Origin: Polytrichum commune
Taxonomy: Eukaryota; Streptophyta; Polytrichopsida; Polytrichales; Polytrichaceae
Assembly (NCBI GenBank): GCA_950295325.1
Contig: OX485803.1
Span: forward strand, 19,344,001 to 19,408,000
DNA length: 64,000 bases
Direction of reading: 5' to 3'
Shown here: one piece after another, positions 58,260-60,908 of the stretch
Position numbering within the stretch: position 1 is the stretch's first letter
How the letters are laid out: each line of letters begins with the position of its first letter
Made by a program: the position numbers and the translations under genes
Notes under the pieces: model-generated
Databases searched by the model: none
Told to the model about the DNA's origin: nothing
What the model saw: only the letters and a program-made list of their open reading frames with translations

Positions 58260-58790
58260 GTCATGAAGTTGGGTAGAAAAAGGACCCTGGAAACTTCGGC
58301 AGACAAGCCGTAAAGGATTTTGAGGCCGATACCACATGAGTGGCAGCCTGGGAGGAGGTAAAGGCTAGGGTAAAGCCTAGGGTGGGGGGTGGCACGTCAG
58401 CCGTTGCCCCTGACCCCCACCACACTTTGCCGGGGAGTGAGGGAGCTCGGAGCAGGAGCGGGGAGTGAGGGTGCTGGAGGATACGCCATATGGTGGTCCC
58501 GCCATCTGATGTGGCACGGCAGGTGAGCGCTGCCAGTGTATTTTCCATGGTAGAGTCTCCCTGCTGCTCGGGGATGCCACTGGGGATAGCCTCTCACCTG
58601 CCTGCCCTTGGTGTGGTAAGTGGCAGGTGGGCTCGGCCAATGGGGGCAAGCAGTACGGCCTGCCTACCCCCCATGTGGTTCCCCCCTGAGTAACTTGCAG
58701 TAATGGGAGCCGCTGGGGTGCTGCAACGTGGCATTCGTGCTGACGTGGATGCCACATCAGCTCCTCAATCGGCCCACAGACAAGTGTCCT
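58260..58790. other. GC-rich islet, unknown origin
   Basis: Base composition shifts abruptly to GC-rich between two MITEs. The long overlapping frames on the minus strand (58261-58757) have Pro/Ser/His-rich low-complexity translations and no family features. TGGCACGTCAGCC near 58388 and its partner-like GGATGCCACATCAGC near 58746 suggest element ends, but the match is short. Possibly a transposon fragment from a GC-rich family. Confidence 0.4.
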
Positions 58791-58792
58791 TA

Positions 58793-59347
58793 GGGCGGCT
58801 TTATATTAGGGCCCATTTGCCGGCCGGCCCATTTGGAGTAGAGTCCACTTGGACTTGAAGTGGGCCTTACTTTACTCTAACTCTAGCCCTACTTTACAAA
58901 GTGGGCCGTTGAGTGGACCTTGCAATATAAAGTCCATAGGACCACTTGTAGGGTCCAAATTGGAAATTCCGCTTTAAAGTGGGCCTTCCAAATGGGCCTA
59001 GGGACTTTATATTGTAAGGCCCAATCCACGGCCCACTTTGTCTTAAATGAATTATGCCCTTCTTGAACTAAAGTCATAAAGTCATAAATGACTATATGAC
59101 GGAAGTTGGGTGAAGTGGGCCGTAGATGCGAAGTGGGTCTCCATAAACCCTCGACCCATTTTTTTGCCGGCGGCGCACTTTTTTCCCTCCAAAACGCCAC
59201 CATGTCACCCGCCACGCAAGCTTTAGGAGAAGTGGGCCGACTCTCAATATAAAGCCCTCGGGACCATATTAGGGTCCATTTGGGCAATCTAAGCACTCTC
59301 ATTGGTTGATGCCTAGGGTTTGGAAATGGGCCCTAATATAAGCCTCC
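58793..59347. mobile_element. MITE with GGCTTTATATTAGGGCCC termini
   Basis: Left end GGGCGGCTTTATATTAGGGC and right end GCCCTAATATAAGCCTCCAC are inverted repeats of about 28 bp. Internal TTTATATTG and CAATATAAAG motifs and GTGGGCC blocks are themselves inverted. TTA precedes the left end but does not follow the right. The right end stops about 14 bp before a TATA-like box of the LEA gene. Confidence 0.65.
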
Positions 59348-59360
59348 ACTCTTCGGCGCT

Positions 59361-59370
59361 CCATAAATCC
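59361..59370 (+). promoter_or_regulatory. TATA-like box, candidate LEA core promoter
   Basis: CCATAAATCC is followed by a C-rich, leader-like stretch with CGCACGCACGCACG near 59409. It is the only TATA-like site in a gene-like composition between the MITE and the LEA coding region. It lies about 490 bp upstream of the fusion ATG and about 850 bp upstream of the LEA ATG. Tentative. Confidence 0.35.
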
Positions 59371-59849
59371 CCTCGTGCCCAAACCCCTGCTACGCATTTG
59401 CATTCGCACGCACGCACGCTGATCGAGTTGCTAGTCCTTCACCACTCGTCGAATTCGTGTGCGTACTTACAGTACGTTATTTGTGTTGTGTAAACTTTTC
59501 TACGGTTCTCAAGAAATGAGTCAATGCCCCAATCAAGGAGCATTGATGGGGGCTAGCCGGGAAACATTAAGTTAAGGCGGATGAAGCCGAGCAAAAAAAT
59601 CTATTGTGCCTCATGCACTCTTAACACATGCCACATGGCGCTTTGCCTAAATAATATCTACATTGTGAGTTAAGATCACAAATGTGCATGTACCCTTATA
59701 GACTCAATTTTTGAGGTGCGTGGCTTGTGGAGCAACTTCCCATGAGTGTAGAACATAGAGAAATTTGTGTTTTTTGATGAATTTTTTTGTGATTTCTCTT
59801 CTCTTCCTTCTTGTGGACCACACTGTGGAGAATAGGAATTAGAATTGGC

Positions 59850-60206
59850 ATGATGAAGCCAATTTCAAGAGACAAAGTGAGAGATATTGTTGCTCTTTTG
59901 ATGAAAGGTAAGAGTTCAAGAGTGGTTGCAAAGTCATTGGGTTTCTCACAGAGTACGGTGAATAGAGTGAGGAAGAAACATTGTAGTAACTTAGAATTGC
60001 CAAAACGAGGTGCTCCAAAGATTCTTAGCACTTCAGAGAGACGACGTGCTGTGCGTTTGGTCACGGTTGGAGGGCTGGAAACGGCAGTAGAGGCAGCAAA
60101 AGTGTTGAGAGAGGGTAGAGAAGTGGGTTTCTGTGATAACACTTTGCGGTCTGCTTTGAGAGATGTTGGATTGAGTGCCTGTAGAGGGAGGTATAAGCCA
60201 GTCAAG
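59850..60206 (+). mobile_element. Tc1-type transposase N-terminal remnant, open and in frame
   Basis: Encodes 119 residues with the paired helix-turn-helix layout of Tc1-family transposases. The first HTH is ~4-41 (ISRDKVRDIVALLMKG, then KSLGFSQSTVNRVRK). A GAPKILSTSERR linker leads to a second HTH ~64-110 ending NTLRSALRDVGL. The family then continues with a basic KKP-type stretch and the DDE catalytic domain; here the sequence stops at RGRYKPVK and the LEA start codon follows. No catalytic domain or terminal repeat was found. No stop codon interrupts the 119 codons. AT content is higher than in the LEA part. Confidence 0.75.
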
Positions 60207-60908
60207 ATGCAAGGAGTCAAGCACGCAGCTGCCAATGCCAAGGAGAAGGTTGGCAATATGACCGCCAAGGTGGAGGAGAAGATGGACAAGGGCAAGGCCT
60301 CAGCTGCCGAGAAGGTATGAATGAATTCTTCACCATCTGGACTCTGGAGCTCTGAGAACGCGGGTAATGGAGTCTGTGACACTACGTTGGTGGTAGTAGA
60401 ATTTTTGACATTCCAACGTGTAACTTTTTCATGAGACTTTTGCGTTCGCATGTAATCTTTTGTGTGAGATTTGAGATGGGAGCAGTTATGTCAAGATGAT
60501 GAACTTGTTTGAGAACGTTGGGGGCACGGATGCAATTTGTATACAAACTCGGCTTCCTCGCTGTAATATGTCATTATCGGCGACTCAAAGGTTCGGCGAG
60601 AATCATATGTAGTCTTGCGTTTATCTCGAATTAATACAATTTCGAGAAATGGGTAATAATGAGGCTGATGTGTATGAACCACCTCTCTTTTGCAGACGGA
60701 CAAGGCCATGGCCGACGACAAGGTTGGAAAGTTGGAGGCCAAGGAAAGGAAGCATGAGCGGGAAGGACAGGCTGAGCGCGTGAAGGACCAAAAGAAGGTC
60801 GAAAATGCTCAGGAAGTGTCCAACATCAAACAGGACGTCGACAACCGCCATGCAGCTGCCGACCACGCTTACAAGCACCCCGAGACTGTTCCAACAGCCA
60901 ATGTCTGA
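59850..60908 (+). CDS. LEA_1 (group 4) protein with N-terminal transposase HTH fusion
   Basis: Exons 59850-60314 and 60696-60908 join in phase 0 (AAG|GTATGA ... TTTTGCAG|ACG) to give 225 residues. Residues 120-225 are a typical LEA_1 protein: start MQGVKHAAANAKEKVGNMTA, alanine/lysine/glutamate-rich amphipathic repeats, then a basic KLEAKERKHEREGQAER region and a His/Pro C-terminus. Such proteins are cytosolic or nuclear, disordered in water, and protect proteins and membranes during desiccation or seed/spore drying. Residues 1-119 are the Tc1-type double HTH described separately. The LEA-native ATG (60207) is intact, so two products are possible: a 106-residue LEA protein or a 225-residue DNA-binding fusion. 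The single intron position inside the LEA part fits a host gene. Whether the long form is translated cannot be told from sequence. Confidence 0.8.

Follow-up and report, generated by a model that had tools for sequence, protein, structure and literature searches.

A Tc1-like transposase fragment open in frame with a LEA_1 gene in Polytrichum commune: a possible nascent fusion, most likely neutral

Introduction

When a transposase frame runs without interruption into a host gene, is the result a new host-transposase fusion or a transposon remnant that happens to be open? One locus of the moss Polytrichum commune raises this question. It lies in a 64,000-nt stretch of DNA (hereafter the window; assembly GCA_950295325.1, contig OX485803.1), in which Tc1-type helix-turn-helix (HTH) codons lead into a LEA_1 gene. 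A first-pass annotation, made from the sequence alone, described a chimeric gene able to encode a DNA-binding stress-protection protein and named a young, neutral insertion as the main alternative. We find a possible nascent host-transposase fusion that is most likely neutral.

Results

A single frame joins a transposase N-terminus to a LEA_1 protein

One open frame on the forward strand, from 59850 to 60314, carries the transposase and host domains together (Table 1). As first annotated, the HTH codons run without a stop into an intact LEA start, and exon 1 continues in phase into exon 2. The phase-0 junction joins 59850-60314 to 60696-60908, with donor AAG/GTATGA (GT at 60315) and acceptor TTTTGCAG/ACG (60695/60696). 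The fused product would be 225 aa long, of which 106 aa are the intact LEA_1 protein (PF03760; 47.9 bits, Pfam cut-off 25) and 119 aa precede it. Its predicted mass is 24.8 kDa, against 11.7 kDa for the LEA protein alone. All 119 codons had been ascribed to Tc1. This holds for 111 of them; the remaining 8 (60183-60206) form a leader that aligns with none of the 12 sibling copies described below. The leader contains TAAGCC at 60194-60199, at the same offset as in the siblings. With 2/11 of the preceding bases matching and 9/11 differing, we rejected the reading of this stretch as diverged Tc1 sequence.

Table 1. Features of the locus, in window coordinates
Feature	Positions	Strand	Basis
Two ABRE-like ACGTG motifs (starts 58726, 58743), taken as original LEA promoter, now upstream of the MITE	58726..58747	+	Pattern scan
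MITE-like repeat bounded by 18-bp terminal inverted repeats (58801-58818, 59324-59341)	58801..59341	.	Repeat search
TATA-like CATAAATC, putative native LEA promoter	59362..59369	+	Motif likeness to L021, L022
Putative native 5′ leader of LEA, portion before the fragment	59370..59508	+	No match to 59342-59520 among the best 40 of 209 candidates
Tc1-like fragment, element positions 9 to ~673 of ~1607 (L002 coordinates), both ends missing	59509..60182	+	Genome comparison
HTH transposase N-terminus, 111 codons, two HTH units	59850..60182	+	Pfam, sibling alignment, structure model
24-nt non-Tc1 leader, 8 codons (RGRYKPVK)	60183..60206	+	Aligns with 0/12 siblings
LEA_1 exon 1, native ATG	60207..60314	+	Pfam, protein search
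LEA_1 intron, phase 0, GT..AG	60315..60695	+	Splice-site scan, fused translation
LEA_1 exon 2 including stop	60696..60908	+	Protein search, fused translation

In Pfam, the 119-aa part scores 24.7 bits for HTH_23 (cut-off 24.6) and stays below the cut-off for HTH_50 (24.9; cut-off 27) and HTH_Tnp_Tc3_2 (16.4; cut-off 31.5). The HTH part is basic, with a pI of 11.1. A single-sequence AlphaFold model of 59850-60314 (mean pLDDT 59) predicts helices at residues 7-18, 23-30 and 34-44 with confidence and at 61-71, 79-87 and 97-105 with low confidence; the confident part is the first three-helix unit only. Searched against PDB sequences, the HTH part gave weak matches only (best E 0.32).

The transposase part is a fragment of a recently amplified Tc1-like element

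We compared 59700-60300 as a DNA query with the genome that contains the window (64 contigs, 407.8 Mb in total). Of the 18 match rows, one is the window, 13 come from 12 loci (91-96% identity), two are LEA paralogues and two are weak matches to Tc1. Among these 18 matches listed, the window alone spans both the Tc1 and the LEA part. In a longer-region comparison, the 12 loci (the siblings) match the window at 90-96% identity over 59508/59509 to 60180/60182, which places the Tc1 origin beyond doubt. One sibling, L018, aligns in two pieces that flank an insertion. A query from the DDE side recovers 11/12 sibling loci at at least 92% identity, the next long matches reaching at most 69% and two short stretches 76-78% (best 40 of 76 candidates). 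With the HTH protein as the query, the next match beyond the sibling loci is at most 57% identical (best 150 of 302 candidates).

The sibling L003 retains an uninterrupted 340-residue transposase with a DDE_3 domain at residues 143-288, in which 34 residues separate the E from the second D. The fragment in the window is therefore homologous at the DNA level to elements with a DD34E transposase, as expected of a Tc1-like origin. A TA precedes the left tip in 12/12 siblings. A right end was found in 10 of them, and in 9 of these, all but L002, a TA comes directly after the tip. In a tree rooted by a distant Tc1 subfamily (9/11 fetched copies used; L026 and L027 are without a usable N-terminus), the window is placed, with low support, within or next to the group of the nine closest copies. 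By its described features, the family resembles PpTc1/PpTc2 of the moss Physcomitrium patens: the siblings share with the elements of PMC4054914 the CAGT-type tips and TA flanks, a length of ~1.6 kb, a 338-340-aa transposase with two HTH units and DD34E, and a recent burst. The window copy differs from those elements in having neither end and no DDE domain.

On the left, the window copy is without the eight terminal bases CAGTGACT and their TA; on the right, everything beyond element position ~673 is gone. Terminal inverted repeats with CAGT tips and a TA target duplication are thus absent at both ends, and the Tc1 piece is therefore a fragment, not an element. The annotated loss of the 3′ part is correct in that the whole of it is missing, but the left tip is gone as well. 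The transposase had also been described as cut exactly where the DDE domain would begin; the cut in fact lies 32 residues earlier. In L003, the HTH_Tnp_Tc3_2 match ends at residue 133 and DDE_3 begins at 143, and the window stops at residue 110 of the same numbering, 23 residues short of the end of the HTH_Tnp_Tc3_2 match. The cut is thus inside the second HTH Pfam match, yet the helices of both HTH units are kept.

To the left of the fragment, a TACAGT (TA plus the Tc1 tip CAGT) occurs at 59468-59473, beginning 41 bp from the fragment's first base. It could be what remains of the true left end, followed by 35 bp of filler, or a chance occurrence (~1%, an estimate).

The LEA_1 gene has received two transposons

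A protein search identified two further LEA_1 loci in the genome, L021 and L022. A whole-genome search for the LEA_1 Pfam family gave no match, and its 14 controls were also unmatched, making that search uninformative. The start MQ.VKHAA is common to all three loci, and L021 encodes a full relative in which the intron position is also shared. Between the window and L021, dN is 0.33 and dS is 1.63; for exon 1 (31 codons) against L022, the values are 0.09 and 1.15. The LEA protein was therefore under purifying selection over the history of the paralogues, by a pairwise measure that mostly predates the insertion. The native 106-aa protein resembles LEA_1 (PF03760) proteins in its Pfam score above the cut-off and, as in L021, in its start and intron position; the window gene differs in its potential 119-residue N-terminal extension.

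The fragment lies between the LEA_1 promoter and leader and the native ATG, in agreement with the first-pass annotation; L021 and L022 share with the window the protein start, a CATAAA/CATAAG motif and upstream ACGTG motifs. The TATA-like motif reads CATAAATC in L021, 260 bp before the ATG, and CATAAGCC in L022, ~158 bp before it. With the fragment set aside, the window's motif would stand ~171 bp before its ATG. ACGTG/CACGT motifs occur ~50-130 bp before the TATA-like motif, one in L021 and three in L022. The window's two ACGTG motifs, which we take to be ABRE-like and whose function is putative, are separated from its TATA-like motif by the MITE-like repeat, which splits the LEA promoter. 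This repeat has at least 39 other near-full-length copies (best 40 of 227 candidates), and the matches to other copies start near 58789-58792. The interval 59342-59520 gave no match in the genome (best 40 of 209 candidates). With a MITE in the promoter and a Tc1 fragment in the leader, each of the two has thus received a transposon. The MITE itself may disturb ABA control of the LEA gene.

A message from the native promoter would start near 59390, a guess from the TATA-like motif, and would carry the fragment. Between 59390 and 59850 there are 11 ATGs, all within the fragment, that open frames of 3-30 codons, the last of which ends at 59842. The LEA ATG is also preceded by three in-frame ATGs of the HTH frame and by one out-of-frame ATG (60163). 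Since 11 ATGs stand before the fusion start on such a message, the insertion may simply impair the LEA gene: the short upstream frames would leave little protein, and what is made from 59850 would be mainly the HTH-LEA hybrid. Alternatively, a promoter inside the fragment could yield a message with 59850 as its first ATG, or a donor-like site at 59908 could destroy the message.

The open join needs no selection

The HTH segment is open in 8/12 siblings; the other four have frameshifts (L010, L013), a stop (L012) or stops and an insertion (L018). We slid the breakpoint through the HTH frame of the 12 siblings, joining each to the real 24-nt leader, and 831 of 3283 simulated breakpoints (0.25) gave an open fusion. 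With an open join arising at this rate by chance, openness needs no selection. The Tc1 homology is more than chance; the in-frame, stop-free join is not.

The fragment is also young. The window's terminal branch measures 0.015-0.016 substitutions per site over the whole fragment and 0.024-0.025 over the HTH codons. At 1% per My, the rate used for moss Tc1 elements in PMC4054914 and one that may not hold here, the fragment would be about 1.5-2.5 My old.

Private changes in the HTH part comprise three at the residue level and none that is synonymous (two nonsynonymous and none synonymous under a stricter nucleotide filter), and three changes are too few to show constraint or purifying selection. 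In the neighbouring 341 noncoding nt of the fragment there are four private substitutions and two small private insertions. That the HTH part carries no indel or stop against two insertions in this adjacent sequence is a weak difference (Poisson ~0.13 at equal rate). The working chimeric DNA-binding stress gene first proposed is not borne out by these few changes and a frame that is open at ~0.25 by chance. The alternative named beside it, a young insertion open by chance, accounts for the frame and fits the private changes.

One comparison goes against a neutral reading. All three private residues, R7, S23 and E81 (59868, 59916 and 60090-60092), equal the majority residue of the distant Tc1 subfamily, compared with 0/26 private residues in the 12 siblings (Fisher 2.7e-4, post hoc); the expected match rate per random change is 0.05. 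The counts omit gapped codons, positions read as stops and a locally scrambled stretch of L017 (codons 21-26). Frameshifted siblings were counted after alignment to the window frame, and stops in the distant family were ignored in determining the majority. At residue 81 the window has the same codon as the distant subfamily, but at 7 and 23 its codons are different, so sequence exchange fails to explain all three. This match hints at protein-level constraint at some time on the lineage, in a test devised after the data were seen; it cannot tell constraint during the life of the element from constraint after the fusion.

Discussion

Weighing the explanations

We consider it probable that a piece of a recently amplified Tc1-like element lies in the leader of the LEA_1 gene and was joined to it in frame by chance, probably leaving an altered or weakened LEA gene with no selected function. 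The fragment would have landed in the leader of a LEA_1 gene with ABA-type motifs, or remained there after partial loss at both ends, and the transposase HTH frame would have met the LEA ATG in frame by chance, roughly one time in four. We favor this explanation because of the youth of the fragment, the eight open siblings, the frequency of open joins in the simulation, the single locus, the 11 upstream ATGs and the MITE-split promoter; the intactness of both the LEA and the fusion frame counts against it, as do the three private residues and, weakly, the HTH part free of indels and stops. In a selected host-transposase fusion, by comparison, the HTH would lend the LEA protein nuclear, DNA or protein binding, for example to Tc1 ends or to A/T-rich chromatin during drying. 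The open fused frame, the six predicted helices (the second three of low confidence), the basic pI and the match of all three private residues to the distant subfamily speak for such a fusion, and there is precedent in PMC12062965, where an N-terminal Tc1/mariner HTH in F-box genes affects thermotolerance. Given the youth of the fragment, its presence at one locus, the lack of any private synonymous change for comparison, the chance rate of the join and the upstream ATGs, we regard selection for the fusion as quite improbable. We give a very slight chance to a more specific version, in which a newborn fusion ~1.5-2.5 My old would yield an HTH-LEA protein induced by desiccation; R7, S23 and E81, kept or regained toward the DNA-binding consensus of the wider family, would let it bind Tc1 ends or chromatin.

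The fusion might also never be read, with wild-type LEA protein alone being made, either because transcription begins downstream of 59901, within the fragment or beyond it, or because the fragment is spliced out of the message. Transcripts of moss PpTc1 copies are reported in PMC4054914, so a promoter inside the fragment is possible. The donor-like AAG/GTAAGA at 59908 outscores the LEA donor (7.6 vs 5.4, with a crude matrix), but by the same crude matrix the AG just before the LEA ATG (60201) scores -3.5. The single acceptor above 3 within the fragment is just 44 nt from this donor, and beyond it none exceeds 3 until the LEA acceptor (60695); a splice from 59908 to 60695 would drop the first LEA exon and disrupt the reading frame (58 nt). 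Production of wild-type protein only is, on balance, unlikely. It is hardly credible that the join is an assembly or haplotype artefact in which a Tc1 read was attached to the LEA locus: both ends of the fragment do fall where sibling copies do not end, but the window lies within a 77.9-Mb contig of the 64-contig assembly, and the fragment's private substitutions and insertions are found in 0/12 siblings.

Relation to known fusions

The chance in-frame join that we prefer can be set beside known host-transposase fusions. The Caenorhabditis F-box A2 genes, as presented in PMC12062965, likewise place a Tc1/mariner HTH N-terminal to a host protein and are linked to a stress response. That family is old and expanded, bears signatures of purifying selection and has a tested function, whereas the window holds one young, predicted fusion, in which the partner is a LEA protein and the route is direct read-through. 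According to a section heading in the same source, the F-box A2 HTH plays no part in transcriptional regulation. The tetrapod fusions SETMAR and KRABINER, named there, also join a transposase DNA-binding domain to a host domain; they are reported to bind DNA and regulate expression, whereas the fusion described here is a predicted frame with a LEA partner. A literature search by title and abstract opening, with partial coverage, found no LEA-transposase fusion.

If the fusion is translated, it would represent a very early stage of host-transposase fusion, reached by plain read-through and not by exon capture, with a plant stress-protection partner. If it is not, the locus would cleanly illustrate how a pair of transposons can reshape both promoter and leader of a single LEA gene. 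It would also serve as a warning: with open siblings and a one-in-four chance, a chimeric frame that is open counts as weak evidence.

Elsewhere in the same genome (G000), three loci (C1:29375836, C6:19174573 and C3:551205) match the Tc1-like HTH at 40-44% identity and have stop-free frames of 323-405 aa. These are either intact members of other Tc1 families or domesticated genes.
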